A stretch of DNA of 64,000 bases from Rariglobus sp. (GTDB lineage: Bacteria > Verrucomicrobiota > Verrucomicrobiia > Opitutales > Opitutaceae). The DNA is taken from NCBI GenBank assembly GCA_029266495.1, contig JAQSWS010000052.1, positions 1-64,000 on the forward strand. The letters are read 5' to 3'. Below, piece after piece: positions 4,591 through 20,315 of the stretch (its first letter is position 1; each line of letters starts with the position of its first letter). The position numbers and the translations under genes are program-made. The notes beneath the pieces were generated by a model. The model made no database searches. It saw nothing but the letters and a program-made list of their open reading frames with translations, and was not told where the DNA came from.

Positions 4591-5955
4591 ATGCCTTCCA
4601 TCAAATCCAAACCGCTCAGCTTTCCCAAAAACTTTGTTTGGGGCGTCGCCACCGCCGCCCCCCAAATCGAAGGCGCCGCCTTTGAGGACGGCAAAGGCGA
4701 GTCCATCTGGGACCGCTTCTCCCGCATCCCGGGCAAGGTCCTCAATGGCGACACACTCGACGTCGCCAACGACCACTACCACCGTTACCCGCAGGACTTC
4801 GCGCTCATGCGCAAGCTCGGCATCAAGAACTACCGCCTCTCCATCGCCTGGCCCCGCATCTTCCCCAACGGCGATGGCGAGGTGAACCCCGCCGGCCTCG
4901 CGTTCTACAACAAGCTCATCGATTCCTGCCTCAAGCACGGCATCACCCCGTGGGTCACCCTCTTCCACTGGGACCTCCCCCAGGCGCTCGAAGACCGCGG
5001 TGGCTGGACCTCCCGCGTGACCGCCGATGCCTTCGCCCCTTATGCCGAGACCGTTGTCAAAGCCCTCGGCGATCGCGTCAAAAACTGGATCACCCTCAAC
5101 GAAATCGTCTGCTTCACCCTCCTCGGCTACTCCAAGGTCGGCGACAAGGCCCCCGGTCGCAACGAGAGCGCGCAGGTCGTCAACCAGACCTACCACCACG
5201 CCCTCCTCTGCCACGGCCACGCGGTGAAAGCCGTGCGCAAATTCGGCGGCAAGGGCGCCCGCGTCGGCATCACCGACAACTCCGCCATCCCCGTTCCCGT
5301 CACCGAAACGCCCGCCGATATCGCCGCCGCCCGCGCCTGGTTCATCGAAAAGAACTCCCGCATCCTCGAGCCCATCTATACCGGCCGCTACTCCGCCGAT
5401 CACAAAAAACGCATGGGCGCCGACATGCCCGTCGTCGAAAAAGGCGACCTTGCCCTCATCAGCCAGCCCACCGATTTCCTCGGCCTCAACATCTACACCG
5501 GCGCCTTCGTCCGCGCCGCCAAGGGCAAACGCTACGAGGAACTCCCCCTCCCGGCCGACTTCCCGCGCTCGAGCTGCCCGTGGCTGAACATCATGCCGCA
5601 GGTCCTCTATTGGGGCACCCGCCTCCCCGCCGAGGTCTACGGCGTCAAAGCCATCTACATCACCGAAAACGGCTGCGGCTACGACGTCGAAACCGTCACC
5701 GAAAGCGGCGAGGTCCACGACCTCCACCGCCGTGACCTGGTGCGCAATTACCTGCGCGAACTCCACCGCGCCATCGTCGACGGCGTGCCCGTGAAAGGCT
5801 ACTTCCTGTGGTCGTTCATGGATAACTACGAGTGGCAGGACGGCTACACCCGTCGCTTCGGCATCGTTCACTGCGACTTCAAGACGCAGAAGCGCACGCC
5901 CAAGACCTCCGCCAAGTGGTATGCGAAGGTCATCGCCGAAAACCGCATCGTGTAA
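4591..5955 (+). CDS. Glycoside hydrolase family 1 beta-glucosidase
   Basis: 454 residues, standard for bacterial GH1, with no signal peptide, so cytoplasmic. The N-terminal FPKNFVWGVATAAPQIEGA is the family signature. The acid/base Glu lies in TLNEI (E171) and the nucleophile in YITENG (E359). It should release glucose or a related sugar from beta-linked disaccharides or aryl glycosides. The residue after the acid/base Glu is Ile where the family normally has Pro (NEP), which is worth noting. It follows dxs by 75 bases and precedes a sugar isomerase-like gene, so disaccharide utilisation is plausible. Confidence 0.93.
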   Translation: MPSIKSKPLSFPKNFVWGVATAAPQIEGAAFEDGKGESIWDRFSRIPGKVLNGDTLDVANDHYHRYPQDFALMRKLGIKNYRLSIAWPRIFPNGDGEVNPAGLAFYNKLIDSCLKHGITPWVTLFHWDLPQALEDRGGWTSRVTADAFAPYAETVVKALGDRVKNWITLNEIVCFTLLGYSKVGDKAPGRNESAQVVNQTYHHALLCHGHAVKAVRKFGGKGARVGITDNSAIPVPVTETPADIAAARAWFIEKNSRILEPIYTGRYSADHKKRMGADMPVVEKGDLALISQPTDFLGLNIYTGAFVRAAKGKRYEELPLPADFPRSSCPWLNIMPQVLYWGTRLPAEVYGVKAIYITENGCGYDVETVTESGEVHDLHRRDLVRNYLRELHRAIVDGVPVKGYFLWSFMDNYEWQDGYTRRFGIVHCDFKTQKRTPKTSAKWYAKVIAENRIV

Positions 5956-5971
5956 GGCCCGTTCTGCGTGG

Positions 5972-5991
5972 CCCCGGGCGTAAGCCCGGGG
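5972..5991. repeat. GC hairpin with GTAA loop
   Basis: Perfect inverted repeat CCCCGGGC-GTAA-GCCCGGGG just after the GH1 stop codon. There is no T tract, so it is not a standard intrinsic terminator. It could be an mRNA-stabilising hairpin or a dispersed palindromic repeat. Confidence 0.6.
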
Positions 5992-6028
5992 ATTCCGCCG
6001 CACGTCCCCTGCCCCGCCTCCGCCGCCC

Positions 6029-6841
6029 ATGCCCCGCCCCTACCTCCGCGCCTTTTCCACCCTCGGCTGCGTCGAACTCACCCTCGACGAATCCTTCGCC
6101 CTCGCCTCACGCCACGGTCTTGACGCCGTCGAACTCCGCGGCGTCGGCGGTTCCCTCGACGTGCCGGCCTGGCTCGCGCACACCTACGGCTCGCCCGAGG
6201 ATTTCGCCGCTCACGCCCGCCGTTCGCCTGTTCGTATTGCCGCGCTCGATACCTCGCTGCGCCTCATCGGCAACAGCGCGGCCGATCGCGAGGCATTCCT
6301 CCATTTTATCCCGTGGGCCGAGGCGCTGGGCATCCCCCGCCTGCGCGTCTTCGATGGCGGCGGCAAAGCCCTGACGGAGGCCGAACTCGCCCAGGCCCTC
6401 GACACGCTCGCGTGGTGGAATGCCCACCGTCGGACGCAAGGCTGGCACACCGATCTGATGATCGAGACGCACGATGCGCTCGTCACCACGCCGGCGATCC
6501 GGCGCTTCCTCGCCGCCGCCCCCGCCGGCACCTCGCTCCTCTGGGACGCCCACCACACCTGGCGTCAGGGAGGTGAAAAGCCCGCCGATACCTGGAACGC
6601 CATCCGCTCCGCCGTCGTTCATATTCACGTGAAGGACAGCACCGCGGTCCCTTCCGGCCGCCATCCCTACACTTATGTGCCCCCCGGAGGCGGCGAGTTC
6701 CCGATGACCGCCCTCCGCGACGTCCTGCAACGCGACGCTTACGCAGGTCCGGTAAGCCTCGAATGGGAACGCCACTGGCATCCGGCCCTCGCCACGCTGG
6801 AAACCGCGCTTACCGCGGCCCACGAAACCGCCTGGTGGTAA
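6029..6841 (+). CDS. Sugar phosphate isomerase/epimerase-like TIM barrel protein
   Basis: 270 residues with the AP-endonuclease-2/xylose-isomerase-like TIM barrel layout: FSTLGCVELTLDESFALASR at the start, LGIPRLRVFDGGG in the middle, then IETHDA, LLWDAHHTW and HIHVKDS, which carry the usual metal-binding Glu, Asp and His, and SLEWERHW at the end. The family includes inosose dehydratases, hydroxypyruvate isomerases and 3-keto-sugar enzymes. The exact reaction cannot be assigned. It follows the GH1 gene by 73 bases and may process the released sugar. Cytoplasmic, no signal peptide. Confidence 0.8.
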   Translation: MPRPYLRAFSTLGCVELTLDESFALASRHGLDAVELRGVGGSLDVPAWLAHTYGSPEDFAAHARRSPVRIAALDTSLRLIGNSAADREAFLHFIPWAEALGIPRLRVFDGGGKALTEAELAQALDTLAWWNAHRRTQGWHTDLMIETHDALVTTPAIRRFLAAAPAGTSLLWDAHHTWRQGGEKPADTWNAIRSAVVHIHVKDSTAVPSGRHPYTYVPPGGGEFPMTALRDVLQRDAYAGPVSLEWERHWHPALATLETALTAAHETAWW

Positions 6842-7063
6842 GCCGGCGGGCGAACGTCCGCTCCAAAGCGCCTCTTTCAAAATTGGTGCGGACGGAAAGC
6901 CCAAGCCAGTTTGCATTCAATACAGGCGAGTGAATAAGTGTTAATAAACCCGAATAATATAGCCGCCTCACAGGAGCTATATGGCAAATCCAACGCCTCA
7001 ATTCCCCTGAATTCCGGCAATTGACCCCGCAGGGGAAAAGAATCCATAAGGATGCCAAACATA

Positions 7064-7074
7064 TGACTTAGCCA
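7064..7074. promoter_or_regulatory. Operator-like palindrome, site 1 (TGACTTAGCCA)
   Basis: One mismatch from the 11-bp palindrome TGACTTAGTCA. It lies 128 bases before the proposed start of the first GntR-SBP regulator, which suggests autoregulation. Confidence 0.6.
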
Positions 7075-7187
7075 AATATGGTTAATTTCTAAGTGTAAAC
7101 TTGATCTGATTATGGACGGGACCCCAAAAGAGCTTTTCGTCGACTCACCCATTGATTGACAGTCACGGATAATGGCCGACACTAATC

Positions 7188-7198
7188 TGACTTATTCA
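7188..7198. promoter_or_regulatory. Operator-like palindrome, site 2 (TGACTTATTCA)
   Basis: One mismatch from TGACTTAGTCA, ending three bases before the proposed ATG at 7202. If the upstream ATG at 7172 were used it would lie inside the gene; its position supports the later start. Bound regulator here could block translation initiation or early elongation. Confidence 0.5.
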
Positions 7199-7201
7199 GA
7201 T

Positions 7202-8602
7202 ATGCTCGCCAACAAAGTAACCGATGTTCGCCATTACATCCTCTCCTTGCTGGAAGAGGGAGCATTATGCGCAGGACACCAGTTGCCCGGCGCGCGCGAG
7301 ATCGCCCTCACACTGAGTATTTCCTTCGTCAAAGTTCAGCAGGCAATTGAGACCCTCTGCCAGGATGGCGTGCTGGAAACGGTATCCCGCAAGGGTACCT
7401 TTGTGCAAAAGGACTGGCACAAACGAGCGCTTCGGGAAAACGTGGCGGTCTACAATCAGCTGCATCGCATGACGTGGGCGACCGGTCTGCTGAAAGAGCT
7501 AAACCGTGAGATTGGCGGACTCCGGATGACTTATGCCTTTGAGCAAGGAATGCTCGAAATACGCACCACCCGCCATGTGCTCGTCAACCATGCGGAATAC
7601 ATGGATATCGGTGATATTTTCCGGGAGTGCTACCCCGATCAGTCGGTCTTTTTCGAACGCCCCATGGAGCCCTTCCGGGTCGGCGGGCGGACGGTCGGCA
7701 TTCCGTTCTCTTTTTCACCTCGTGTGATCTTTTATAATCCCACCGCCTTCGAGCAGGCGGGCTGCCCCTTGCCACGACCCGGGTGGAGTTGGGATGAATT
7801 TATCCAAACGGTGAGGCGCCTGAAAAGATCGGTGCCGCCGAATCGAGTCATCAATTGGCATCCTCAGTTTTTCCTTTGGATGAATTTCGTTGTGCGCTCA
7901 GGCGGTTGTTTATTCCGACCAAATGAAGACGACCCGGTGGCCGTGGACAGCCTGCAGACCTTGGCCGGCCTTAAGCGGTTTGCAGACTTGGGCGCCGAGT
8001 TAGGTTCGACAGACCCGGACGGGGACGCGTTTAGCGCGGCATTCCTGGACGGCGATGCCGCAATGCAGATAGCCGGGCGCGAACAGATGCATGCCTTGGC
8101 GAGCTCGAATAACCGCAATTGGGGAGCGGTGCCGCTGCCTCTGATGCCGGATGGACTCGATGTGACCGCCCAGGCAACGGATTTAATCTGCGTGAGAGCA
8201 TCCTGCGCGACATCTGCACTGGCCAGAAAGTATGTTCGGACGATGCTCTCCGAGCGCGTCCAAGACTACCTTGCCAAGGTCAAACAGAACATCCCGATCC
8301 GCAAAAGTTCGGCATTCCTAAGTCTTGATCTAGGCGACCCCCGTGACGCGCTTTTCGCGATGGAGCTGGGAAAGGTTTCCACGGCGTTTCATCTGGCACC
8401 ACCGTATCCAGGCGCACTGGTCACGGATGGAATCAACCAATTGCTCGCGGGTAAGGGCGATCTGGAAGAAGGACTCGCGGAACTGGCTCAAATGGCGCGA
8501 ACCTGGCTGGCGATCCATGGGCGGATGGCAAAGGGCTCCATCGATCGATCGCCAGCACGGACCGGCAGATCCGATCTCCAGGCGGTCGTGCCGCAGCTGT
8601 AG
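7202..8602 (+). CDS. GntR winged-helix/ABC solute-binding domain fusion regulator, copy 1
   Basis: 466 residues from ATG 7202; a start at 7172 adds ten residues. Residues about 5-70 are a GntR winged helix: a TDVRHYILSLLEEG helix, LPGAREIALTLSISFVKVQQ and the wing VSRKGTFVQ. The rest (about 85-440) resembles a family 1 ABC solute-binding protein: VGIPFSFSPRVIFYNP, GWSWDEFIQTV, a GDAAMQ motif and AVPLPLMP. There is no signal peptide or lipobox, so the binding domain must be cytoplasmic and probably senses an imported sugar or oligosaccharide. The later start is chosen because the paralogue begins at the matching MLNKVTDVRH. Operator-like palindromes lie upstream. I know of no characterised member of this architecture. 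Confidence 0.85.
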   Translation: MLANKVTDVRHYILSLLEEGALCAGHQLPGAREIALTLSISFVKVQQAIETLCQDGVLETVSRKGTFVQKDWHKRALRENVAVYNQLHRMTWATGLLKELNREIGGLRMTYAFEQGMLEIRTTRHVLVNHAEYMDIGDIFRECYPDQSVFFERPMEPFRVGGRTVGIPFSFSPRVIFYNPTAFEQAGCPLPRPGWSWDEFIQTVRRLKRSVPPNRVINWHPQFFLWMNFVVRSGGCLFRPNEDDPVAVDSLQTLAGLKRFADLGAELGSTDPDGDAFSAAFLDGDAAMQIAGREQMHALASSNNRNWGAVPLPLMPDGLDVTAQATDLICVRASCATSALARKYVRTMLSERVQDYLAKVKQNIPIRKSSAFLSLDLGDPRDALFAMELGKVSTAFHLAPPYPGALVTDGINQLLAGKGDLEEGLAELAQMARTWLAIHGRMAKGSIDRSPARTGRSDLQAVVPQL

Positions 8603-8670
8603 TTTTCATCATACGGCTCACAGCTCCCGCCATGATTGCAGCTCACCCCTTCGCCACGCCGGGCAACAAT

Positions 8671-9990
8671 CTATCCGCGAATCTTCAACCAAATCCTCGC
8701 AAACCGGGCCAGCTCCGAGAGTCCCTCCTCCAAATTCGCATTCTGGTCCAACAATTGACAGATTCCGTCTGAAATTAATGCACCAGGATACGGTTCGCCC
8801 AGGTTAAAGGCCGTGGAAATCTTGCCCATTTCCACCGCAAACAGCGCATCCCGGGGATCCCCCAGGTCGATGCTTTTGAACGCCGAACTCTTACGGATCG
8901 GAATATTCTGTTTTGCCTGCGCCAAGTAATCCTGCACCCGCTCCGACAGCATCGTCTGGACGTATTTTCGCGCCAGCGTGGGCGAGGTGCACGACGTCCG
9001 CACACAAATCAAATCCGTTGCCTGGGCGGTCACATCAAGTCCGCCGGGCATCAACGGCATGGAGGCCACCGACCACGTCTTGTTATCGGAACCGGCGAGA
9101 GCGTGCAGCTGCTGACGACCGTCGATATGCATTGCCGCCTCGCCCCTCAGGAAAGCCGCTTGAAAATCATCCCCATTGAAATCGAGGTGTCCCAATTCCG
9201 CGCCTAATTCCGCGAACCGGCGGAGCCCGCTTAACGTATTCGGATGATCAACCATCACCGGATCGGAGGCGTTCGGCGAAAACAACCCGCCGCCGGAACG
9301 CACGACAAAATTCACCCAGAGGAAAAACTGCGTATGCCAGTTGATGATGCGATCACGGGGAATCGAGCGCTTCAGGATACGCACCGTTTCCATAAATTCA
9401 TCCCACGTCCATCCGGCGCGCGGCAGCGGACAGTTGGCGCGTTCGAATACACCTGGATTGAAAAAAATCACGCGCGGCGAAAATGCCAGGGGTATCCCGA
9501 CCATCCGCCCGTTCACCGTGAAAGGCTTCATGGGCCCTTCGAAAAACACCGACTTGTCCGGATAACATTCCGCAAAGATCCCGCCGATGTCCATGTATTC
9601 GCCCTGGTTCACCAGCACATGCCGCGTCGTGCGAATCTCCAGCATGCCCTGCTCGAACGCAAAGGTCGTTCGCAGCCCTCCGATCTCCTGGTTTAACTCC
9701 GATAACAAACCACCGATCCAAGGCATCCGGAACAGCTTGTTATAGACGGCGAGATTCTCCCGCAATATCCGCTTCTCCCAGCCGGCTTGAACGAAGGTCC
9801 CCTTCCGCGACACCGTCTCCAGCACTCCATCCTGGCACAACGTTTCGACCGCCTGCTGCACCTTCAAAAATGAAATCCCCAAGGTCAGCGCCAGCTCTCG
9901 CGCTCCGGGCAACCGCTGCCCCGCTTTGAGTTTCCCCTCTTCAAGGAGATTAAGAACGTAGTGCCGGACGTCGGTGACCTTGTTGAGCAT
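8671..9990 (-). CDS. GntR winged-helix/ABC solute-binding domain fusion regulator, copy 2
   Basis: 439 residues, clearly paralogous along its whole length to the regulator at 7202-8602 and convergent with it. It has the same winged helix (LPGARELALTLGISFLKVQQ, VSRKGTFVQ) and cytoplasmic solute-binding domain (VGIPLAFSPRVIFFNP, GWTWDEFMETV, GEAAMHIDG). The recognition-helix region differs only slightly from copy 1, so overlapping DNA targets are possible, while pocket residues may differ. It lies 84 bases after the pseudopilin gene on the same strand and may be read through from it. Its own upstream region holds a different inverted repeat (9992-10031). Confidence 0.85.
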   Translation of the reverse strand: MLNKVTDVRHYVLNLLEEGKLKAGQRLPGARELALTLGISFLKVQQAVETLCQDGVLETVSRKGTFVQAGWEKRILRENLAVYNKLFRMPWIGGLLSELNQEIGGLRTTFAFEQGMLEIRTTRHVLVNQGEYMDIGGIFAECYPDKSVFFEGPMKPFTVNGRMVGIPLAFSPRVIFFNPGVFERANCPLPRAGWTWDEFMETVRILKRSIPRDRIINWHTQFFLWVNFVVRSGGGLFSPNASDPVMVDHPNTLSGLRRFAELGAELGHLDFNGDDFQAAFLRGEAAMHIDGRQQLHALAGSDNKTWSVASMPLMPGGLDVTAQATDLICVRTSCTSPTLARKYVQTMLSERVQDYLAQAKQNIPIRKSSAFKSIDLGDPRDALFAVEMGKISTAFNLGEPYPGALISDGICQLLDQNANLEEGLSELARFARIWLKIRG

Positions 9991-9991
9991 T

Positions 9992-10031
9992 GAGCGAAAG
10001 CAGAACCACCCAGTGATAACCGCTTTCGTTC
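9992..10031. promoter_or_regulatory. Spaced inverted repeat before regulator copy 2
   Basis: GAGCGAAAGC at 9992-10001 and GCTTTCGTTC at 10022-10031 form a nearly perfect inverted repeat with a 20-base spacer, directly upstream of the ATG at 9990. Centre spacing of about 30 bases fits three helical turns, so it may be a two-site operator, or an RNA hairpin covering the start. Confidence 0.45.
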
Positions 10032-10052
10032 TCTCAGTGTCAAATCATGTTT

Positions 10053-10070
10053 GGCCCCTCCCTCGGGGCC
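10053..10070. repeat. GC hairpin after the pseudopilin gene
   Basis: GGCCCC and GGGGCC arms with a six-base loop, just downstream of the pseudopilin stop. No T tract follows on the minus strand, so termination would be weak; it may reduce read-through into regulator copy 2. Confidence 0.4.
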
Positions 10071-10074
10071 GGGT

Positions 10075-10869
10075 TTACGGAGACACCCAATAACCATTTC
10101 CCCACGCCATTTCTGATGTCAGGTAACGCGTGGAATCCTCCGGCTTCACATGTTTGACGTGCCCGTCGGCAAACGCCGCGTTGAAGCCGCCCGAGTGGCG
10201 CCGCCAGATCAGCGAACTGTCCTCGCCGAAAACGGACTTCTGATGCTCCAGTTTATTAACGTTGTCCCACACCCATTTGTCGAACGAGTCGGCCAGCAGC
10301 ACAAACCTGCCCGGGTTGGGAATCTCGCTCATCACCAGACTGTCGATGCGATGGGTGGCGGTCCCATGGGGATCGTAAAACATCTCGGATACTTTCGTCG
10401 TGGACGGAAGGTTGCCCTCCGCCGTCCACATGTAGCAATTGATGCCATAGGCCTGGCTGTCTTTTAAATACAAGACACGGGAATCGTAACTCAACGGACA
10501 ACTGGTGATGCGTTCGCCCAGCCGGCTCTCCAGCCCCGGTGCGTTCGTGAACTCCACGTAGCCTTTTTCCAACAGCAGCTGATCCCATCCCCACCACGTC
10601 GTGGATCCCGCCCTTTGCCAATAGATGGGGAGGCGCTGCCGATGCTCCGCAGCATAACCCAGCAGCACTACACTCGACGCCCGCAGGTTGCTTGTGCAAA
10701 GCGCGGACTTTGCCCGGTCCCTCACTCGTCCGATGCCCGCGAAGACCAGCGCCAACAAGAGCGCGACGATCGCGATCACGGCCAGCAACTCGACGAGCGT
10801 AAACGCCCGGAGGGCCTGGCCCCGCTTCGAAAAGCAAGCCGTCATGGAATAAGCCTTGATGGTGGTCAT
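10075..10869 (-). CDS. Type II secretion-type pseudopilin with H-X9-DG domain
   Basis: 264 residues from ATG 10869; ATG 10845 is also possible. The N-terminal prepilin motif is AFTLVELLAVIAIVALLLAL, with Ala rather than the usual Gly at the -1 processing position, followed by the hydrophobic helix. The C-terminal part contains H-S-G-G-F-N-A-A-F-A-D-G, which fits the H-X9-DG domain common in Planctomycetes and Verrucomicrobia pseudopilin-like proteins. It would be processed by prepilin peptidase and act at the inner membrane or surface with a secretion system. It starts 25 bases after the beta-helix gene on the same strand, so the two form an operon under the operator at 13855. Confidence 0.88.
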   Translation of the reverse strand: MTTIKAYSMTACFSKRGQALRAFTLVELLAVIAIVALLLALVFAGIGRVRDRAKSALCTSNLRASSVVLLGYAAEHRQRLPIYWQRAGSTTWWGWDQLLLEKGYVEFTNAPGLESRLGERITSCPLSYDSRVLYLKDSQAYGINCYMWTAEGNLPSTTKVSEMFYDPHGTATHRIDSLVMSEIPNPGRFVLLADSFDKWVWDNVNKLEHQKSVFGEDSSLIWRRHSGGFNAAFADGHVKHVKPEDSTRYLTSEMAWGNGYWVSP

Positions 10870-10894
10870 GTCGATTTTGCGATGTGAGGTTCGA

Positions 10895-13828
10895 TTAGCG
10901 GGCTGCGACGAGGGGGAGCTCGTCGCCCGCGAACAAGGGCCGGGTGCCAATCAGCACCGCATCCAGCTCGATTTCTTCGCGTGGAATCAAACGGAATTGG
11001 TTCTCCCCGGCATTCAGTTCCAAATGAGCCGTGGCCGCGACGAGCCGGCACCATTGCCATTGATCGCCGGCAACGACCGCCATGCGCAACGGAACGCTGC
11101 CGTTGAGTGAAGTGAACATCGAATCATGCAGCCCATAGGGCTTCTGGCAGCGGACCCGGAAGGCCACGTAATAAGCGCCGGCCGTGGGCGCGTTCACCGT
11201 GATCGTCAGCGCCTTGGCGCCTTCACCGGAAACCCCGGCTTCCTTGTCCACGAGGCGCACCGCCCCTCCACCCAGCGCCTTCGAATCGGCGATGAGTTCG
11301 AAACCGTCATGTCCCGGCAACGCTTCCGCCTCGATAAACGTGTGCATCCGCTCCGCCGTCGCCAACCCGTAAACCGAGACCGGCAATGACTCGCCATTCG
11401 CCAGCTTGAGAATCAGCGCGCCGGGCAACAGTCCGCGTCCCACCACATCCTTCGGATCGAGACTCACGCGAATCCGCGTTTCTTTGCCGGGTTGCAGCAC
11501 ACCTTGAGAGGGCTCCGCATTCAACCAGTCGGTCCCGCCGTTCTTCAAGACCGTGAACCGTGTCGGTGCCTTCAACCCATTCGTGTTGATCACCCACTCC
11601 TCGGCTTCGGAGGTTTTGCCTTCATCGCTCGTAAGAAAAATCTGTCCGTGGCTGCTGGTCACCGAGGTCCGCCGCAACGGCAAAGGAGCCGCGACAAAAA
11701 CGCCCGCGTCGATTTTCCCTTGCTTGGGCTGCCACGTCTCAAACCCGGGGATACGAATCCCCAAACCTGATCCTTCGCCGCCCGGCACCAGATGCAGCAG
11801 GCCTTTCTTCGCATCGACAAAAGTCACCGGGACCTTGACGCCCGATTGCTCGACCACGCCCGACACATCATAGGTGCCGGGGCCGCCGTTCGCGCCGGCG
11901 AACACATCGTGATCGTAGCGATTTTCATCCGCACGCTCGCCGTCGTTGATGCCCATGCCACTCGTCGCATACAGATTGTTAAAAGAGTCGCCGCGAAACA
12001 GTCCGCGATTTTTATCCCCGCCGTAACCGATCGCCGCCACGCCGTGGCCGAGGGTGAAAAACGTATTGTGATAAAAATACTGCTTCCCGTGCGAATTCGT
12101 CGGGCCGCCGCCATTTTTGACACCGGCACTGGCGGCGCCGCGTTCGTCGCCCAGGTTCACCACCAGGTTATTAAAGACATACGAGGGTCCGCGGAAATTC
12201 GGCGCCGTGCTGATACCGCACAACACACCTTCGATTTTGTTGCCGTAGAGACGCACGTTGGCCTGGCCGCCATCGAGTTCGATTCCGTCATCGTTCCCGT
12301 AAGCCAGGTAGTTCCCGTAGATGTCGGCATCCTGATTAAATCCGCCGTCCTGCTTTTCATTGCCATAGCCTTCGATCACGTCGTTCCAGCGGTGCCGGTC
12401 GCCGCCCACAAAATCATTATAGCGAATCACCAGGTTTCCCTTGCTGCGCACCAAGACCGCGGTGGGTCCGGCCGGATGCCCGTAAAACCACGAGTTCGCA
12501 TGATTGCGCGGAGCGTGGATAAAATTATTTTCAATCGTCACGTTGCTCGACAGATCCAGATACACGCCCGCATCCCAATTGATCGGCTTGTCCTCACCGG
12601 GAAGAAAATATTGTCCCTCACGTTTCGGATCCGCCACGCCGATCCGACCAAAGCCGGAGATATCACAATTACGAATCCGCACGTGATCCGAATCCTTGAG
12701 CTGAATGCCGTGCCGCCAGCCACCCTTGATCGTAACGCCCTCGATGATCACATAGCTGACTCCATTCACGAGCAGCGCCTCATTGGCCGTCTCACCGCCG
12801 TTAATCACGAAATCCGGCGAGCCCACGTAACGAATCCAGCCATCGGCCGTTCCACTTTGGTCGATTTTCATCGGACCGCCGCCCTTCGCCAGTTCGCTCA
12901 ACAAAATCGTGCGTGCGACCGGCACTTCATCGGCCCAGGTCTTGAATTCCCCGGCTGCCAGCAGCGAACCGTCGGCGCGCTCACAGCGCACGTCATAGCT
13001 GGTATTTTGCCGCAGCCCTAACAAAGACCCCCTCGGAGCGGGGTCCCTGGCCGAGGTCGAAAATGGATGCGCCTCGATCCACTTCGCCGCGCCTTTTTCG
13101 CGATATTTGATTTTGGGCAACGGCAATCCCGGCGCGGTCGGCTGGACATAGATGCTGGCATTTTCATAGGTCGGCACGATTCGCAGCGTCGCCGTGATCG
13201 AGGCAGCCGCCGCAGCCTCCCTGGCCTCGTCCTCCGCGGTCCATTCACGCAATGCCAGTCCAGCAAACCAAACGGTGCCGCCCACATGCCGCTCCTCCTG
13301 ATACCAGCGGCACAACACCTCCATCCGGTCCGCCGACGCAACCACACCCGCTTTGTCGGTCACACGGGTATCAATCTTCATCTCCACTTTCCGCCACGCG
13401 CCATCGCTCAAGCCTCCGTTCATTCTCACCAGTTCCGTTCGGCCATCATAAAGCTTCACCTCGATGTAGGCCGCGCGCTCCAGGTCGCTCTTCATATAAC
13501 CCGTCAAAACCCATTTTCCACCGTCTGCAGGAATCGAGATTCGCTGAGTCAACTGCCCGCTCCCAGCGGCCTTTGAACCCACCACCAACCGCACCGCCGT
13601 CTGAATTCCCTTTGGCAAATCCGCGGTCTCGGCCGTCAAAACCGTCCCCGCAGGATGTAATTGCCACCCTTCCGGAACGCTTAGCCCTTCCGCAATCGTG
13701 AGCGAAGGATTCGTCAAAACCGAATCGGCTCCCAACAAAGCCTGCCCGCAGAACACAGCCGCAAGCGACAACATGATCGCCGTATATGAGCCGAAGGCAC
13801 GTGCGGAGTAAGGAACCCATGAAAGCAT
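10895..13828 (-). CDS. Secreted right-handed parallel beta-helix multidomain protein
   Basis: 977 residues from ATG 13828, chosen because it gives a proper signal peptide ending in CGQALLGA and leaves the operator at 13855 upstream. Order: carbohydrate-binding-like beta-sandwich (about 35-195), fibronectin-III-like domain starting at RIVPTYENASIYVQP, right-handed beta-helix (about 325-690, with YGNDDGIELDGGQ and HNTFF-type turns), an Ig/BACON-like domain (WLNAEPSQGVLQPG) and a C-terminal sugar-binding-like domain. Such proteins are pectate-lyase-like polysaccharide lyases, epimerases or adhesins; I cannot assign catalytic residues. It is a paralogue of the divergent gene at 14019 and heads an operon with the pseudopilin. 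Confidence 0.82.
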   Translation of the reverse strand: MLSWVPYSARAFGSYTAIMLSLAAVFCGQALLGADSVLTNPSLTIAEGLSVPEGWQLHPAGTVLTAETADLPKGIQTAVRLVVGSKAAGSGQLTQRISIPADGGKWVLTGYMKSDLERAAYIEVKLYDGRTELVRMNGGLSDGAWRKVEMKIDTRVTDKAGVVASADRMEVLCRWYQEERHVGGTVWFAGLALREWTAEDEAREAAAAASITATLRIVPTYENASIYVQPTAPGLPLPKIKYREKGAAKWIEAHPFSTSARDPAPRGSLLGLRQNTSYDVRCERADGSLLAAGEFKTWADEVPVARTILLSELAKGGGPMKIDQSGTADGWIRYVGSPDFVINGGETANEALLVNGVSYVIIEGVTIKGGWRHGIQLKDSDHVRIRNCDISGFGRIGVADPKREGQYFLPGEDKPINWDAGVYLDLSSNVTIENNFIHAPRNHANSWFYGHPAGPTAVLVRSKGNLVIRYNDFVGGDRHRWNDVIEGYGNEKQDGGFNQDADIYGNYLAYGNDDGIELDGGQANVRLYGNKIEGVLCGISTAPNFRGPSYVFNNLVVNLGDERGAASAGVKNGGGPTNSHGKQYFYHNTFFTLGHGVAAIGYGGDKNRGLFRGDSFNNLYATSGMGINDGERADENRYDHDVFAGANGGPGTYDVSGVVEQSGVKVPVTFVDAKKGLLHLVPGGEGSGLGIRIPGFETWQPKQGKIDAGVFVAAPLPLRRTSVTSSHGQIFLTSDEGKTSEAEEWVINTNGLKAPTRFTVLKNGGTDWLNAEPSQGVLQPGKETRIRVSLDPKDVVGRGLLPGALILKLANGESLPVSVYGLATAERMHTFIEAEALPGHDGFELIADSKALGGGAVRLVDKEAGVSGEGAKALTITVNAPTAGAYYVAFRVRCQKPYGLHDSMFTSLNGSVPLRMAVVAGDQWQWCRLVAATAHLELNAGENQFRLIPREEIELDAVLIGTRPLFAGDELPLVAAR

Positions 13829-13854
13829 CATGAATCGGACGATGCCCGACATAG

Positions 13855-13865
13855 TGACATAGTCA
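13855..13865. promoter_or_regulatory. Operator-like palindrome, site 3 (TGACATAGTCA)
   Basis: One mismatch from TGACTTAGTCA. On the minus strand it reads TGACTATGTCA and is preceded by T, giving a TTGACT that could be the -35 box of the beta-helix/pseudopilin operon. The flanks match site 6: AAATTTA just before it and TATG shortly after on the minus strand. Confidence 0.65.
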
Positions 13866-13968
13866 ATTAAATTTCGGGCGATAAATGCGACCACCGCCTA
13901 AAACCCGAGAAGCGAACCAACGAAGCCAGCACACCCGTCTCTTCACCAATAACCGGCTTGACGCGATC

Positions 13969-13979
13969 TGGCTTAGTCA
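13969..13979. promoter_or_regulatory. Operator-like palindrome, site 4 (TGGCTTAGTCA)
   Basis: One mismatch from TGACTTAGTCA, 40 bases before the ATG of the large beta-helix gene at 14019. A TTGACG at 13958-13963 could be the -35 box, placing the palindrome between -35 and -10, as in repression. Confidence 0.65.
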
Positions 13980-14018
13980 GTAGGCGATTCATTGCTTCTT
14001 ATCGACCCCATAATCCCC

Positions 14019-17000
14019 ATGAACATCCGTTCTTATCTTTTCACCCCGCTCGTAGCACTCGTGCTACCGTTCACCGCCTCGGCCGCGACCATCAATATCG
14101 GGTTTTTGCCAAGTGCGATTAATCCACCCGCCACATCGAACCTCGATGGCGTGACGTGGAATCGCCTGACCCAGAATGCCGTGGTGAGCCCCCGCAGCCT
14201 GGTGGATTCCACCGGTGCGACCACTGGAGTTTCGGTCACGTCGAATACAACCCTGCAGTATACTTATGTCGCCCAGTCGGGCTTTCCCGGCCTGCCCGAA
14301 TCGATCTCCAGTGATTTCGTCTTCGGTTACGATGGCCCCTCCGCGGCCCCCTCCTTCACGTTTTCAGGTCTTGATAATAACTACACCTATACCTTCCGCG
14401 TGTATGCGATGAGGTATAATCAGACCGACATTCGTTCCGGCCTCTACACCGCCACCGGAGGCAACACCAAATCGGGAGTGCTCAACGCCAGCAATAACAC
14501 CAGCACGGTTTTAGTGCTGAGCAATGTCACCCCGAATGCAAACGGCTCCATCACGTTCAGCATGATCAAGGATGCGAGCAACACGAGCGCCGGTGCCCAG
14601 CCCGGTTATTTCCAGCTCAACGGTCTTCAGATCGAAGCCGTCCCGATCGCCGTCTCAGCCACGACCATCAACATCGGGTTTTTGCCGAGCGCAATTAATC
14701 CACCCGCTACATCGAACTTCGATGGCGTGGTCTGGAATCGCCTGACCCAGAATGCCGTAACCACTCCCCGCAGTCTGGTTAACTCCGCCGGAGCGGCGAC
14801 TGGAGTCTCCCTAACGTCCAATACGACGCTGCAGTATTCTTATGTCGCCCAGAACTTCCCCGGTCTCCCCGAGTCGATTTCCAGCGATTTTGTCTTTGGC
14901 CAGGATGGAGCCTCCGCGAATCCCTCCTTCACGTTTTCGGGTCTCGATAGCAATCAATCCTACACCTTCAGCGTGTATGCGATGAGGTATAATCAAACTG
15001 ACATCCGCTCCGGTCTTTACACCGCCACGGGAGCCAACACCAAGACGGGCGTGCTCAACGCCAGCAACAACACGAGCACCGTCCTGGTGCTGAGCAATGT
15101 CACTCCGGCTGCGAACGGTTCCATCACCTTCAGCATGATGAAGGACGCGACCAACACTGCCACCGGCATCAACGCCGGTTATTTTCAGCTCAACGGTCTT
15201 CGCATCGAAGCCACCTCGGGCGGCGGCGGTGGCGGCGGCGTCCAACCCTCCTCCACGTTCATCGATCAAAATCTCACCGAATTGATCACCACCAATCCCG
15301 GCTTCGAAAACGGCACGACCGGCTGGTCCAGCCAATACACGACGGTCCAATCCACCTACACCGCCAGTGGTGTGAATGCCGCATATCAGGATAGCGCCAA
15401 CTTCTACCGCATCTACCCCATCCGGACGTTCACGGCAGTGCCGGGAGCCTACTACCGCCTCAAGGCCAAGATCGCCACGGCCAACATGGCCATTGGACCG
15501 ACCTTGGATGTGCGCTTTTTCGACGCGAGCGGCACCCAGCTCACCTCTGCGAACGTCACCAATCCGACCGTGGCAGGCACGCGCCCGTTCCACGAGTATG
15601 CCACGGACTACATCATCGCTCCCCCCACCGCCGCGACCGCCAAAATTCACATCGCCACCAGCGCCAATGCAGGCGGCACCGTTTACTACGACGACGTTTC
15701 GTTCGTGAAGGTGAACAATCTGCCCGTGCGTGTCGTCCCCACCTACAACTCCCTCAGCGTTCACGTAGCCAAGGCCGGTGCCGGCTCCGGCATGCAGGCC
15801 CACGTCTTCTATCGCCCCCAAGGCACCTCCACGTGGCACGAAAGTTTCCTGCCCATCTACGACGCTGTCGCCGGCGAATACCGGGTCAGCATCGTCGATC
15901 TTCAACCCGACACCACTTACGAGGTCCAGGCACTCCTCGAAACCGGCGGCGTGGTTTCATCCGAGGCCGGCGCAAGGGCCACCACCTGGCCTGCGTCTCC
16001 GCCGATCGCCTCGACCGTCTCGATCGCCAGCCTCTACAGCGGTTCCGGCGAACTTAAGATCACGAATATGCACGGCTCTCCCACCGGCTGGATCAAGATC
16101 ACCGGCACGGGCACCAACGACGTCGCCGGCGGCTATAACACCACCACAGGCGCCGACAATGGCAGCGCCCTTCTCATCAAAAACTGCTCCTACCTGATCT
16201 TCGAAAACGTCCACGTGACCGGTGGTCGCTACAACGGCATCGAAATCCGCCACTCCGACTCAATCCGCCTTCTCCGTTGCGAGATCAGCGGCTGGGCACG
16301 CACAGCCAATGTCGTCAGCGCGGGCCACTCCTACGAATCCCAAGCCGACGTGACCGCCATTCCCAAACGCCCGATCGACCTTGATGCCGCCATCAAGCTC
16401 AACCACACGACCCGCGTTACGGTCGAACGCTGCTACGCGCATGATCCGCGTTCGGGCTCGAACACCTGGACCTACGGCCATCCAAATGGCCCGACCGCCC
16501 TCTACGTGATGAACAATCTCGAAACCGGCAACTCCGTCATTCGCTACAATGACTTTATCGGGAACGACACGGTGCGCTGGAATGATTCGATCGAAGGTTA
16601 TGACAACTCCGCCGACTCCGGCTCCTTCCACCGCGACAGCGATATTCACGGCAACATGCTTTGCTTCGGCAACGACGACGGCATTGAACTCGAGGGCGGT
16701 CAGAAAAACGTCCGCTTCTGGGGTAACCGCATCGAGAGCTTCTATCAGGGCATCAGCCTGGCCCCCAACAAACTCGGACCATCCTACCTCTATCGAAACG
16801 TCCTCTTTAACATGGGAGACCAAGAGGACGGCGCGTGGGCCGCAGTGAAAGCCGGCGGCGGAACCACCTTCTCCAAGGGCAAATCGTTCCTCTTCCACAA
16901 TACGTTCCACCTAAATGGCAATGGCCTGTATGGCGTCGGCTACGGCGAGGACTCCAACCGAGCCATGTTCATGGCCCTCACTCGAAACAACATCTTCTAC

Positions 17001-17642
17001 TCGACCAACAGCCACGTGAACTACCGGAACGCCATCAGCGACACCTCGCCCAACGCATGGAACAGCTTCGATTATGACAACCTCGCCTCCGCCACGTTGT
17101 CGTCCGCCCAAGTGACTTACGCCGCCGGTCAGGAATCCCACGGAATCCTCAACAACTACCCCACCTTCGTGGACCTCGCCGGCGGCGACTTCCGCCTGGC
17201 AACCGGATCCTCCGCACTGAACGCGGGCCAGCCCTTGGCCAACTTCGCCGAAAACTGGCTCGGCGCCAATCCCGACCAGGGCGCGTTCGAGTCCGGGGAT
17301 AGTTCACTGATTCCGAAGCGCCCCATCGCCATCAGCGCCAACAAATACCTGGTCAGCCTCACCGCGACTGCCAACGGCGGCTCGACCTCCTCCGCGGTCG
17401 TCACGCTCACCACCGGCAACCTCGGCGGCGCGACAGCCTACACCATCCGCAAAAACACCACCGGCACCGCCTGGCTGGCGGTCACGCCCACCGCCGGAAC
17501 GCTCAACAATAACTCCACCCAGTCGTTTACCTTCTCCGTAAACACCGCCGGCCTCGCCGCCGGGCAACGCGAAGCCACCGTGCTCGTGCGTCTGGCCAAC
17601 GGCTACTCCGTGCCGATCACCATCGTCGCCGCCGTCAACTAA
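14019..17642 (+). CDS. Secreted beta-helix protein with two N-terminal Verrucomicrobia-type surface domains
   Basis: 1207 residues from ATG 14019; the neighbour at 17856 begins with the same MNIRS signal peptide. Residues about 24-207 and 216-398 are two closely similar domains beginning TINIGFLPSAINPP. A Gly-rich linker (GGGGGGG) follows, then a carbohydrate-binding-like domain (about 420-565), a fibronectin-III-like domain (RVVPTYNSLSVHVAKA), a right-handed beta-helix (about 680-1080, with FGNDDGIELEGGQ) and an Ig/BACON-like C-terminus (WLAVTPTAGTLNNNST). From the Fn3-like domain onward it is paralogous to the divergent 10895-13828 protein. It lacks a PEP-CTERM anchor, so it is probably released or bound non-covalently. 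Likely a polysaccharide-active or adhesive exoprotein; function unproven. Confidence 0.82.
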   Translation: MNIRSYLFTPLVALVLPFTASAATINIGFLPSAINPPATSNLDGVTWNRLTQNAVVSPRSLVDSTGATTGVSVTSNTTLQYTYVAQSGFPGLPESISSDFVFGYDGPSAAPSFTFSGLDNNYTYTFRVYAMRYNQTDIRSGLYTATGGNTKSGVLNASNNTSTVLVLSNVTPNANGSITFSMIKDASNTSAGAQPGYFQLNGLQIEAVPIAVSATTINIGFLPSAINPPATSNFDGVVWNRLTQNAVTTPRSLVNSAGAATGVSLTSNTTLQYSYVAQNFPGLPESISSDFVFGQDGASANPSFTFSGLDSNQSYTFSVYAMRYNQTDIRSGLYTATGANTKTGVLNASNNTSTVLVLSNVTPAANGSITFSMMKDATNTATGINAGYFQLNGLRIEATSGGGGGGGVQPSSTFIDQNLTELITTNPGFENGTTGWSSQYTTVQSTYTASGVNAAYQDSANFYRIYPIRTFTAVPGAYYRLKAKIATANMAIGPTLDVRFFDASGTQLTSANVTNPTVAGTRPFHEYATDYIIAPPTAATAKIHIATSANAGGTVYYDDVSFVKVNNLPVRVVPTYNSLSVHVAKAGAGSGMQAHVFYRPQGTSTWHESFLPIYDAVAGEYRVSIVDLQPDTTYEVQALLETGGVVSSEAGARATTWPASPPIASTVSIASLYSGSGELKITNMHGSPTGWIKITGTGTNDVAGGYNTTTGADNGSALLIKNCSYLIFENVHVTGGRYNGIEIRHSDSIRLLRCEISGWARTANVVSAGHSYESQADVTAIPKRPIDLDAAIKLNHTTRVTVERCYAHDPRSGSNTWTYGHPNGPTALYVMNNLETGNSVIRYNDFIGNDTVRWNDSIEGYDNSADSGSFHRDSDIHGNMLCFGNDDGIELEGGQKNVRFWGNRIESFYQGISLAPNKLGPSYLYRNVLFNMGDQEDGAWAAVKAGGGTTFSKGKSFLFHNTFHLNGNGLYGVGYGEDSNRAMFMALTRNNIFYSTNSHVNYRNAISDTSPNAWNSFDYDNLASATLSSAQVTYAAGQESHGILNNYPTFVDLAGGDFRLATGSSALNAGQPLANFAENWLGANPDQGAFESGDSSLIPKRPIAISANKYLVSLTATANGGSTSSAVVTLTTGNLGGATAYTIRKNTTGTAWLAVTPTAGTLNNNSTQSFTFSVNTAGLAAGQREATVLVRLANGYSVPITIVAAVN
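14088..14639 (+). repeat. Surface-domain repeat, copy 1 of 3
   Basis: Codes for the first TINIGFLPSAINPP domain of the large beta-helix protein. It is similar at DNA level to copies at 14664-15212 and 17925-18476, with shared stretches such as ATCGGGTTTTT and CTCAACGCCAGCAA. Confidence 0.8.
14664..15212 (+). repeat. Surface-domain repeat, copy 2 of 3
   Basis: Second copy in the same protein, in direct orientation 24 bases after copy 1. The strong DNA similarity points to recent tandem duplication or gene conversion. Confidence 0.8.
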
Positions 17643-17690
17643 TCGTCTGCCCGTGCTCCCTGCAAATTGGGACGCGGGCATAACCAGACG

Positions 17691-17722
17691 AGCCGGCCGG
17701 CTTAAATCCGGCCGGCTTTTTT
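17691..17722 (+). terminator. Intrinsic terminator of the large beta-helix gene
   Basis: Perfect ten-base stem AGCCGGCCGG/CCGGCCGGCT with a seven-base loop, followed by a run of T. It separates the beta-helix gene from the PEP-CTERM gene, so the latter needs its own promoter. Confidence 0.92.
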
Positions 17723-17796
17723 AGTCGAGAGCACCTTACCCTCGTCGACGGACCGAATTCGTTTCAAATTATGCCGACATTTTGATTGACCGCACC

Positions 17797-17807
17797 TGAC
17801 TTAGTCA
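17797..17807. promoter_or_regulatory. Operator-like palindrome, site 5 (TGACTTAGTCA)
   Basis: Perfect 11-bp palindrome. TTGACC at 17787-17792 could be the -35 box and the -10 would fall near 17810, so the palindrome lies within the promoter. It is 49 bases before the PEP-CTERM gene start. Confidence 0.7.
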
Positions 17808-17855
17808 CAACTTAACCCCTGCTTCTTCCTTCACCCAACTCACCCATCAATCACC

Positions 17856-18584
17856 ATGAACATCCGTTCTTCTCTGCTCACCTCGCTCGTGGCGCTCGCG
17901 CTACCGTTCGCCGCCTCAGCCGCGACCATCAATATCGGGTTTTTACCCAGTGCGATTAATCCAAGCCCCACCAGGGACTACGATGGAGTCATTTGGAACA
18001 CCTTGACTCAAAATGCCACGGAAACGCCACGCAGCATGGTTGATTCCGCCGGCGCCGCCACCGGAGTCTCAGTCACCTCGAATACGACCCTGAAGTATGA
18101 GTATATTGAACAGCACGTCTCCATTCTGCCCGAGAACATTTCCAGTAATTTTGTCTTCGGCCATGATGGAGCCCCCGCTAATCCGTCGTTCACCTTCTCG
18201 GGCTTGAATAGCGGTTATACCTATACGTTCAGCGTGTATGCCGTTCTGCTTAATCAAACCGACATTCGCTCCGGTCTTTATACTGCCACCGGCGGCAACA
18301 CCAAATCGGGAGTCCTCAACGCCAGCAACAACACCGGCACGATCCTCGTGCTGAGCAATGTCACCCCGGATGCAAACGGCTCCATCACGTTAAGCATCTT
18401 GAAGGATGCGACCAACAATAGTGCCGATGTCGGCAAGATCGGTTACTTCCAGCTCAACGGTCTTCAGATCGAGGCCACCCCTGCGGCCATTCCCGAGCCC
18501 AGCACCTACGCCGTGCTTCTTGGCCTCGGTTCTTTGGTCTGCGTCGTGATGTGCCGCCACCGCAACCGACGCAACGCCGCTTAA
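17856..18584 (+). CDS. Single surface-domain protein with PEP-CTERM anchor
   Basis: 242 residues: a signal peptide almost identical to that of the upstream beta-helix protein, one copy of the TINIGFLPSAINP domain (about residues 24-207) and a C-terminal PEP-CTERM signal (IPEPSTYAVLLGLG, a hydrophobic segment, then RHRNRRN). PEP-CTERM proteins are normally processed by an exosortase and kept in or released from the envelope. It has its own operator-bearing promoter and its own terminator. It looks like a membrane-sorted version of the domain found twice in the neighbour, perhaps a partner or receptor for it; that is inference. Confidence 0.88.
   Translation: MNIRSSLLTSLVALALPFAASAATINIGFLPSAINPSPTRDYDGVIWNTLTQNATETPRSMVDSAGAATGVSVTSNTTLKYEYIEQHVSILPENISSNFVFGHDGAPANPSFTFSGLNSGYTYTFSVYAVLLNQTDIRSGLYTATGGNTKSGVLNASNNTGTILVLSNVTPDANGSITLSILKDATNNSADVGKIGYFQLNGLQIEATPAAIPEPSTYAVLLGLGSLVCVVMCRHRNRRNAA
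17925..18476 (+). repeat. Surface-domain repeat, copy 3 of 3
   Basis: Third copy of the domain-coding repeat, here in the PEP-CTERM gene, about 2.7 kb downstream of copy 2 in direct orientation. Recombination between copies could swap anchored and unanchored forms. Confidence 0.8.
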
Positions 18585-18617
18585 CGCCCACAGTTCAGAG
18601 CTGCCCTCCAGCTCCTC

Positions 18618-18643
18618 AAAAGCCCCATTTTGGGGCTTTTTTT
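18618..18643 (+). terminator. Intrinsic terminator of the PEP-CTERM gene
   Basis: AAAAGCCCCA/TGGGGCTTTT stem with a TTT loop and a seven-base T run, 34 bases after the stop codon. Confidence 0.92.
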
Positions 18644-18809
18644 GCGGCCTTTGCCTGCGCGGCGCCCTGCCGCAGGCAGGAAGCACCCCGGCCTCGATTG
18701 ATTTTCCGCCCGCAAGGCCCGCGGGTAATTCGCCTGCCAACGAATCTCCCTCGCTGCCCAGCGGCCTTCTGAGCGCACGAGACGACGAGCGAGTTCGACG
18801 GAAGCACGA

Positions 18810-20000
18810 TTAGCCCCGCCCGTCGGCAAAATAGGCCGCGATCCGCCCCTGAACGCGAGGCACGCTCAACGTCGCCCCGCCGCCGCGCAACGATTCGGTG
18901 GCGCGACAACCGGTGGCCACGCTTTCCCGGGCCGCCAGCGGTGACGTGGTGGTCTCCCCGCCGTAGCGCGCATAACGGATGAATTCCTCCATGATCCTCG
19001 GATCCGCCCCCCCGTGCCCGCCATCCCCGGGACGAACACGATAGGTGCGGTCCGCCTCCGCCCGGTAGCCGGAAGACCGCTTGTTCCACACCCGTATGAC
19101 CGTCCCCGCCTCGCCATTCCCGAAGTTTTCCATCCGCCCCCCGGTTCCGATGACCGTGTAGCTCCGCCAATAATCCGGAGTGTAGTGACATTGCGAATAC
19201 GTAGCCTGCACGCCATTGTCCAGGCGCATCATCATCGAGCTCAGGTCCTCGACATCGATCCGGTGATTAAGTCCCCGCGCGGACGTGGGCGGCCATGCGT
19301 CCAGCGTGCAGCCCTTCACCCCGGCGCGGGGTCCCTTAACCGCCGGCAGGCGCTGTCCCAGCCCTCCATACAGGGAAAGCGCGCCCATGCCGGCCACGTG
19401 GCGCGTGTAGCCGCCGCAAAGCCAGTGGATCACGTCAATGTCATGCGCCGCCTTCTGCAGCAGCAAGCCAGTCGAGTAGCGGCGCTCCGCATGCCAGTCA
19501 CGGAAGTAAAAATCCCCGCCATGTCCGACGAAGTGCCTCACCCAACAGGCCTTCACCTCGCCGATCGCTCCGCGCGTAATGAGGGCCTTCATTTTTCGCA
19601 CAAAAGGCATGTGCCTCATGTTGTGACCCAGGTAGAGTTTCGCACGGGTCTTCGCCGCCGCCGCCAGGATCCGATCGCACCCCGGGACGGTGAGGGCCAT
19701 CGGCTTTTCCAAATACACCGTGAGGCCGTGTTGAAGCGCCGCCACCGCCTGCTCCTCGTGGAGGTAATCCGGCGTCGCAATGATCACCGCATCGAGGTCC
19801 ACCCCCAACAACTCCGTGTAGCTTCGCGTGACGACTACGTCTCCGCCAAACTCCACGCGATTCTGCGCCAATACATCCGCATTCAGATCGCAACACGCCA
19901 CGATTCGAGCTCGCGCACCGGAACGATGAACAATCCCCGCCAAATGCCGGCCGCGCCCCCCTGAGCCAATCACCCCGACCCTAAGAAACATCGATTTCAT
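18810..20000 (-). CDS. Gfo/Idh/MocA family oxidoreductase
   Basis: 396 residues with the N-terminal Rossmann motif VGVIGSGGRGRHLAGI, the conserved EKPMAL near residue 98 and a DIDVIHWLCGG motif in the substrate domain. The family oxidises or reduces sugars, inositols or glycosides with bound or free NAD(P). No signal peptide is seen, so it is cytoplasmic. The gene has a perfect operator palindrome 28 bases upstream of the ATG and therefore seems to belong to the same regulon as the beta-helix and PEP-CTERM genes. A role in converting the sugar sensed by the regulators is plausible but unproven. It converges on the PEP-CTERM gene. Confidence 0.88.
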   Translation of the reverse strand: MKSMFLRVGVIGSGGRGRHLAGIVHRSGARARIVACCDLNADVLAQNRVEFGGDVVVTRSYTELLGVDLDAVIIATPDYLHEEQAVAALQHGLTVYLEKPMALTVPGCDRILAAAAKTRAKLYLGHNMRHMPFVRKMKALITRGAIGEVKACWVRHFVGHGGDFYFRDWHAERRYSTGLLLQKAAHDIDVIHWLCGGYTRHVAGMGALSLYGGLGQRLPAVKGPRAGVKGCTLDAWPPTSARGLNHRIDVEDLSSMMMRLDNGVQATYSQCHYTPDYWRSYTVIGTGGRMENFGNGEAGTVIRVWNKRSSGYRAEADRTYRVRPGDGGHGGADPRIMEEFIRYARYGGETTTSPLAARESVATGCRATESLRGGGATLSVPRVQGRIAAYFADGRG

Positions 20001-20028
20001 TGTTAGCTATCCGTAAGAGGCGGCATAC

Positions 20029-20039
20029 TGACTTAGTCA
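20029..20039. promoter_or_regulatory. Operator-like palindrome, site 6 (TGACTTAGTCA)
   Basis: Perfect palindrome. On the minus strand it reads TTGACTAAGTCA, so it also forms a likely -35 box for the oxidoreductase gene. Same flanks as site 3 (AAATTTA before, TATG after). Confidence 0.7.
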
Positions 20040-20240
20040 ATAAATTTAACCGATCCACCAGCTGCCAACACAAGCGCGTGTTCGCGCGAATGACCGCGCA
20101 GGATACGGCCACCCGAGTTCGGATTCACAGCCGAACGTCAGGATGGAACGTGCTGCCCGTCCCACGCTGGTCTTCGCTGGTCAGTCACGGAACTCCCGTG
20201 ATCAAGTTCACGCCGAGTCCATTATATAGACAATTTTCAG

Positions 20241-20315
20241 TGGTGCGGGCAGAGGGAGTCGAACCCTCTTCTCATGCTTGGGAAGCACACATAATAGCCG
20301 GTATACTATGCCCGC
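20241..20315 (-). tRNA. tRNA-Gly (anticodon CCC)
   Basis: 75 bases including an encoded CCA end. Acceptor GCGGGCA/TGCCCGC, D arm GTAT-ACCGGCTA-TTAT, anticodon stem TGTGC/GCATG with loop TTCCCAA, and T arm GAGGG-TTCGACT-CCCTC. It reads GGG codons. The D arm resembles that of E. coli GlyT. It stands alone between the oxidoreductase and the ABC genes, at the edge of the accessory locus. Confidence 0.95.

Follow-up and report, generated by a model that had tools for sequence, protein, structure and literature searches.

Six copies of a short palindrome in the Rariglobus sp. window (the whole stretch of DNA that was analysed, 64,000 nt) are very probably the places through which a regulator of an uncharacterised kind switches its genes; in this regulator a GntR winged helix is joined to a binding protein of the sugar-transporter type (GntR-SBP). 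The same pairing of regulator and site appears, from comparisons with other genomes, to control similar surface and glycan-degrading genes elsewhere in the phylum. A pattern scan of the window located two exact and four one-mismatch copies of the 11-base palindrome between positions 7064 and 20039. The operator core is TGAC-N3-GTCA, with TGACTTAGTCA as its best form. The sites are:

7064-7074, plus strand: operator site 1, TGACTTAGCCA, one mismatch; 138 bp 5' of the regulator 1 ATG (7202)
7188-7198, plus strand: operator site 2, TGACTTATTCA, one mismatch; abuts the likely regulator 1 start, ATG 7202
13855-13865, minus strand: operator site 3, TGACATAGTCA / TGACTATGTCA, one mismatch; overlaps a TTGACT box, 5' of beta-helix 1
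13969-13979, plus strand: operator site 4, TGGCTTAGTCA, one mismatch; shortly past a TTGAC box, 5' of beta-helix 2
17797-17807, plus strand: operator site 5, TGACTTAGTCA, perfect; shortly past a TTGAC box, 59 bp 5' of the PEP-CTERM gene
20029-20039, minus strand: operator site 6, TGACTTAGTCA / TGACTAAGTCA, perfect; overlaps a TTGACT box, 29 bp 5' of the oxidoreductase gene

The preliminary description of this region had listed these six sites, two perfect and four with one mismatch, and the scan confirmed all of their coordinates and mismatches. It placed them in or at the start of promoters, and all six are indeed at gene starts, with site 2 just ahead of a corrected one. The longest ORF for regulator 1 begins at 7172 and so contains the site at 7188, but alignment with its paralogue, regulator 2, puts the true start at ATG 7202, so that site 2 sits against the start codon and not inside the gene. 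Read on the minus strand, sites 3 and 6 (aaatttaatTGACTATGTCActatg and taaatttatTGACTAAGTCAgtatg) do overlap TTGACT in a single register, as had been described, and the equal distance by which sites 4 and 5 were said to trail a TTGAC box is 11 nt in both cases, counted from the first T of the box to the operator. These boxes are suggestive as promoter parts at most, because a simple sigma-70 scan of positions 6900-20300 gave no full -35/-10 promoters, compared to 4.9 in shuffled sequence.

The two regulators and the genes behind the sites are:

7202-8602, plus strand: regulator 1, GntR winged helix plus SBP_bac_1/8 (Pfam GntR 6.8e-9, SBP_bac_8 3.4e-17)
8671-9990, minus strand: regulator 2, 73-74% identical to its paralogue regulator 1; closes the probable minus-strand operon behind site 3
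10075-10872, minus strand: pseudopilin, carrying a methylation motif at the N-terminus and H-X9-DG at the C-terminus; approximate start, ORF to 10950
10895-13831, minus strand: beta-helix protein 1, secreted, right-handed (Beta_helix 1.2e-11); ORF to 13894, start approximate
14022-17642, plus strand: beta-helix protein 2, secreted, parts of it fn3-like and BACON-like; ATG near 14022, longest ORF from 13992
17856-18584, plus strand: PEP-CTERM surface protein (PF07589 22.0 bits, cut-off 20.7; TIGR02595)
18810-20000, minus strand: Gfo/Idh/MocA oxidoreductase (PF01408 9.9e-20)

Both regulators belong to the GntR family, with PF00392 scores of 35.7 and 41.2 bits (cut-off 27). Their SBP part is nearest by sequence to sugar binders, including an arabino-oligosaccharide-binding protein and maltose-binding proteins, a similarity that points to a probable class of ligand and not to the ligand itself. 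The N-terminal winged helix replaces the signal peptide, and the sensor should therefore be cytoplasmic. Regulator 2 has no operator site of its own, and no further full GntR-SBP copy was found in the genome; since the two DNA-binding domains are nearly identical, the regulators probably share the sites. An AlphaFold2 model of the regulator, with four sequences in the alignment, had a mean pLDDT of 45 and was too poor for use. A Spirochaetales MAG (L078:9920-11422) has a separate fusion of GntR-SBP-like form, whose recognition helix (SKSTVTQAL) is the canonical GntR one, so the architecture is wider than the Verrucomicrobiota.

Behind site 3 the minus-strand order is beta-helix 1, pseudopilin, and regulator 2, head to tail, and the site at 13855 probably drives all three as an operon. 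Homologues of beta-helix 1 are present in most of the regulator neighbourhoods examined, and homologues of beta-helix 2 (47-50% identical) lie behind sites at two other loci (L137 and L130). The PEP-CTERM gene with its PF07589 match is accompanied in the genome by four matches to exosortase (PF09721), the expected pairing. The pseudopilins were considered as full Verru_Chthon cassette members and rejected, as only their N-terminal region matches TIGR02600/TIGR02596, far below cut-off. The genes just upstream of regulator 1, at 4591-6841, encode a GH1 glycosidase and a sugar isomerase-like protein of the AP_endonuc_2 type, and neither has its own operator site. A minus-strand tRNA-Gly (ccc) gene occupies 20241-20315, some 200 bp from site 6.

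The reading that we strongly favour is that the palindrome is the operator of both GntR-SBP regulators, which would form an autoregulated, sugar-released repressor of a surface and glycan regulon. A dimer bound at the operator would cover or adjoin promoter elements, or sit at a start codon, and so block its own gene and the beta-helix/pseudopilin/regulator-2 operon, together with the second beta-helix, PEP-CTERM, and dehydrogenase genes. A breakdown sugar or oligosaccharide entering the cell would then bind the SBP domain and release the repressor. Sites 2 to 6 are suitably placed for such a block of transcription, though no consensus sigma-70 promoter was found. It is possible, if rather unlikely, that the GntR-SBP proteins bind these sites but mainly activate, or activate some genes and repress others: the sign of regulation is not readable from sequence, and the paired sites, some 114-124 bp apart ahead of regulator 1 and within the beta-helix divergon, could serve looping or distal activation. 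The sites themselves speak for repression, however, since at 2, 3, and 6 they overlap the start-codon region or the TTGACT box, where a bound dimer would block polymerase, and at 4 and 5 they fall just behind the TTGAC box, also a polymerase-blocking position. GntR regulators studied so far are mostly repressors, which likewise counts against activation.

Whether they repress or activate, the association of these proteins with the palindrome recurs in other genomes. In the nearest relative, Verrucomicrobiota MAG CSMAG_1311 (L015, also G135), from another genus of the same family, the regulator is 72% identical and has TGACTAATTCA 11 bp ahead of its ATG, nearly the same place as site 2. A pseudopilin 49% identical to that of the window is directly ahead of the regulator, a perfect site lies between divergent genes for a GDSL esterase and a beta-helix protein, and TGACTTAGTCT is found 74 bp ahead of the start of a gene whose product was judged by eye to be PEP-CTERM-like, from its C-terminal PEP motif and its basic tail.

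Regulator homologues were then collected across the phylum, giving 50 upstream regions apart from those of the window and L015, and inverted repeats of 3,328 classes (256 four-base arms by 13 spacings, 0-12) were counted up to 250 bp upstream and in 100 shuffles. TGAC-N3-GTCA ranks first, upstream of 24 of the 50, which as related homologues are not fully independent observations; in shuffles it averaged 0.07 with a maximum of 1, and no class went above 8 there. The runner-up, GACT-N1, is nested in TGAC-N3-GTCA. About half of the homologues are without an exact site, many of these having one with a single arm mismatch. The preliminary description had called the palindrome a repressor operator of the GntR-SBP proteins; its position upstream of so many homologues supports the operator pairing, while repression stands as a prediction. 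One contig binned as Smithella (L016:3254-5433), which looks mis-binned and from Verrucomicrobiota, encodes a GntR-SBP protein that shares 39% identity with regulator 2; TGACATTGTCA lies 77 bp upstream of its gene, and the gene that follows directly encodes a pseudopilin.

All 53 DNA-binding domains compared keep Arg35 (FadR numbering), and Gln49 and Arg66 are present in all 24 homologues having the exact site, which is absent from the three homologues that have lost Gln49 and from the two with Arg45. FadR-type sites have the form TKGT-N3-ACMA, and Gln tends to prefer A (PMC4494728). It is a reasonable inference from these sequences that the change of the third arm base from G to A (TGGT to TGAC) goes with that of Arg49 to Gln. 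That some other conserved transcription factor binds the palindrome, and GntR-SBP merely shares its neighbourhood, seems very improbable. A LacI-type regulator gene does lie just ahead of the L015 PEP-CTERM gene, but the motif is found upstream of the GntR-SBP gene itself in 24 of these 50 diverged homologues, is missing where Gln49 is altered, and is nearly absent from related genomes without a GntR-SBP gene.

The genes behind the sites are also of recurring kinds. Across 15 regulator neighbourhoods elsewhere, sites are ahead of beta-helix proteins, some with CBM_4_9 or BACON domains; of PEP-CTERM, Gfo/Idh/MocA dehydrogenase, GH2, and melibiase-like genes; and of long prepilin-like proteins whose start is a weak match to Verru_Chthon A. 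Proteins of ~1,270-1,300 aa behind the operator in order-level relatives (L131:13251-17066, L132:1054-4854, and L137:10722-14624) have a prepilin-like start (GFALVIALSLMAF type), to which their resemblance to Verru_Chthon cassette protein A is limited.

Perfect sites number 50 in 14 carrier genomes against 2 in 20 non-carriers, with 33 matches to the reversed control in the same 14 carriers; the number in carriers is thus modestly above the control, and many isolated matches may be due to chance. The evidence from carriers rests on the positions of sites rather than on counts. Among perfect sites away from the regulator in six carrier genomes, 21 of 23 are intergenic, compared to 7 of 28 for the reversed control (Fisher 2.5e-6), and 10 of 23 are ahead of PEP-CTERM genes, compared to 0 of 28 (Fisher 9e-5). 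PEP-CTERM genes were counted up to 350 bp downstream of a site and recognised by the C-terminal PEP motif only, and the 28 control places are from seven of the eight carrier genomes searched. With the same gene classes behind sites in other genera and families, and distant PEP-CTERM genes in carriers, the surface-protein regulon first proposed from the window is supported. A better name is a secreted glycan-degradation and surface regulon, because Gfo/Idh/MocA dehydrogenases belong to it too, joined in relatives by GH2 and melibiase-like enzymes and by a GDSL esterase.

Within its own genome the motif is concentrated. The window has 13 matches at up to two mismatches (both strands counted) where 4.5 are expected, and none of 100 shuffles reached 13. 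A full-genome scan was made by pattern search; in 4,892,833 bases there are 11 distinct places at up to one mismatch, six of them inside the 13 kb cluster (binomial p = 1.6e-13), and the remaining five fall within coding sequence, at the ends of genes, or ahead of unrelated genes. Two more TGACWWWGTCA sites outside the cluster (C34, C166) are both in coding sequence. One off-cluster near-match, TGACTAAATCA (L010:1501), is followed by a longer, different palindrome, ATATTTTCAGTAATTACTGAAAATAT. Among 70 exact sites of other genomes the flanks are near-uninformative, with a weak T at -6 and -8, and the centre favours A or T, with T at -1. The flanks are alike within pairs 3/6 and 4/5, and beta-helix 2 is related to the PEP-CTERM protein at its N-terminus, so that some copies may stem from one duplicated promoter, but chance, a repeat family, or common promoter elements with no regulator involved can be given almost no weight as the source of all six, in view of the clustering, of flanks so poor in information, and of the recurrence of the motif upstream of homologues in other families.

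With the palindrome read as the operator of the GntR-SBP regulators, we think it fairly probable that these proteins are an undescribed GntR subfamily with a captured ABC-transporter solute-binding sensor, found in many Verrucomicrobiota lineages and using TGAC-N3-GTCA operators, and that they respond to sugars by directly switching PEP-CTERM surface proteins and the glycan degradation linked to pseudopilins, at numerous scattered loci in some genomes. To our knowledge, little has been established about the switch and purpose of PEP-CTERM and the many pseudopilin-like proteins of Verrucomicrobiota. An operator tied to a sugar-binding-protein sensor suggests that the surface proteins belong to glycan foraging, and it offers a sequence tag for finding regulated genes in other members of the phylum. 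If the reading is true, the solute-binding domain of a transporter can act as the sensor of a one-component regulator, and the operator arm changes from TGGT to TGAC as the recognition helix goes from Arg49 to Gln.

A search of open-licence papers gave nothing relevant on the GntR-SBP architecture, the operator motif, or Verru_Chthon cassettes, which is weak evidence of novelty. A 2015 survey recognises six GntR subfamilies according to the C-terminal domain (FadR, HutC, MocR, YtrA, AraR, and PlmA), and the SBP_bac sensor, judged by their descriptions, matches none of them (PMC4494728). The all-helical FadR/FCD domain was not found, Pfam giving only SBP_bac families in the C-terminal part. There is no match to the UTRA domain of HutC, nor is the aminotransferase-like domain of MocR present, and both the HutC and the MocR-type models cover the winged helix only. 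Instead of the short two-helix domain of YtrA, the C-terminal part is ~370 aa long with an SBP_bac match, and the Pfam matches, to SBP_bac_1/8 only, do not extend to the LacI/GalR-type sensor of AraR.

Several known systems are alike in part. The FadR subfamily also has operators of two four-base arms with a 3-base spacing, and helix-turn-helix Arg35 is kept; the arms here are TGAC/GTCA and not TKGT-N3-ACMA, there is no FadR-type C-terminal domain, and Phe or Leu mostly stands in for Arg45, with Gln in place of Arg49 and Arg in place of Gly66. In Proteobacteria, RpoN with PrsK/PrsR likewise controls transcription of PEP-CTERM surface-protein genes, but through sigma-54 and a probable two-component system, in contrast to the predicted one-component regulator with a sugar-type sensor and palindromic operator (PMC9850573). 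LacI-family regulons combine a binding-protein-type sugar sensor with control of carbohydrate-utilisation genes (PMC4052901); their DNA-binding domain and sensor family are different, and the operator here is odd-centred. Closest is AraR of Bacillus subtilis, in which a GntR winged helix and a binding-protein-like sugar sensor control polysaccharide-utilisation genes (PMC4494728). Its sensor is of the LacI/GalR type, whereas that of the GntR-SBP proteins is of the SBP_bac_1/8 type found in sugar ABC transporters. The AraR operator also differs in sequence from this palindrome. The GntR-SBP protein is not a member of the AraR subfamily by its sensor domain; in its working it is predicted, by analogy, to be AraR-like.
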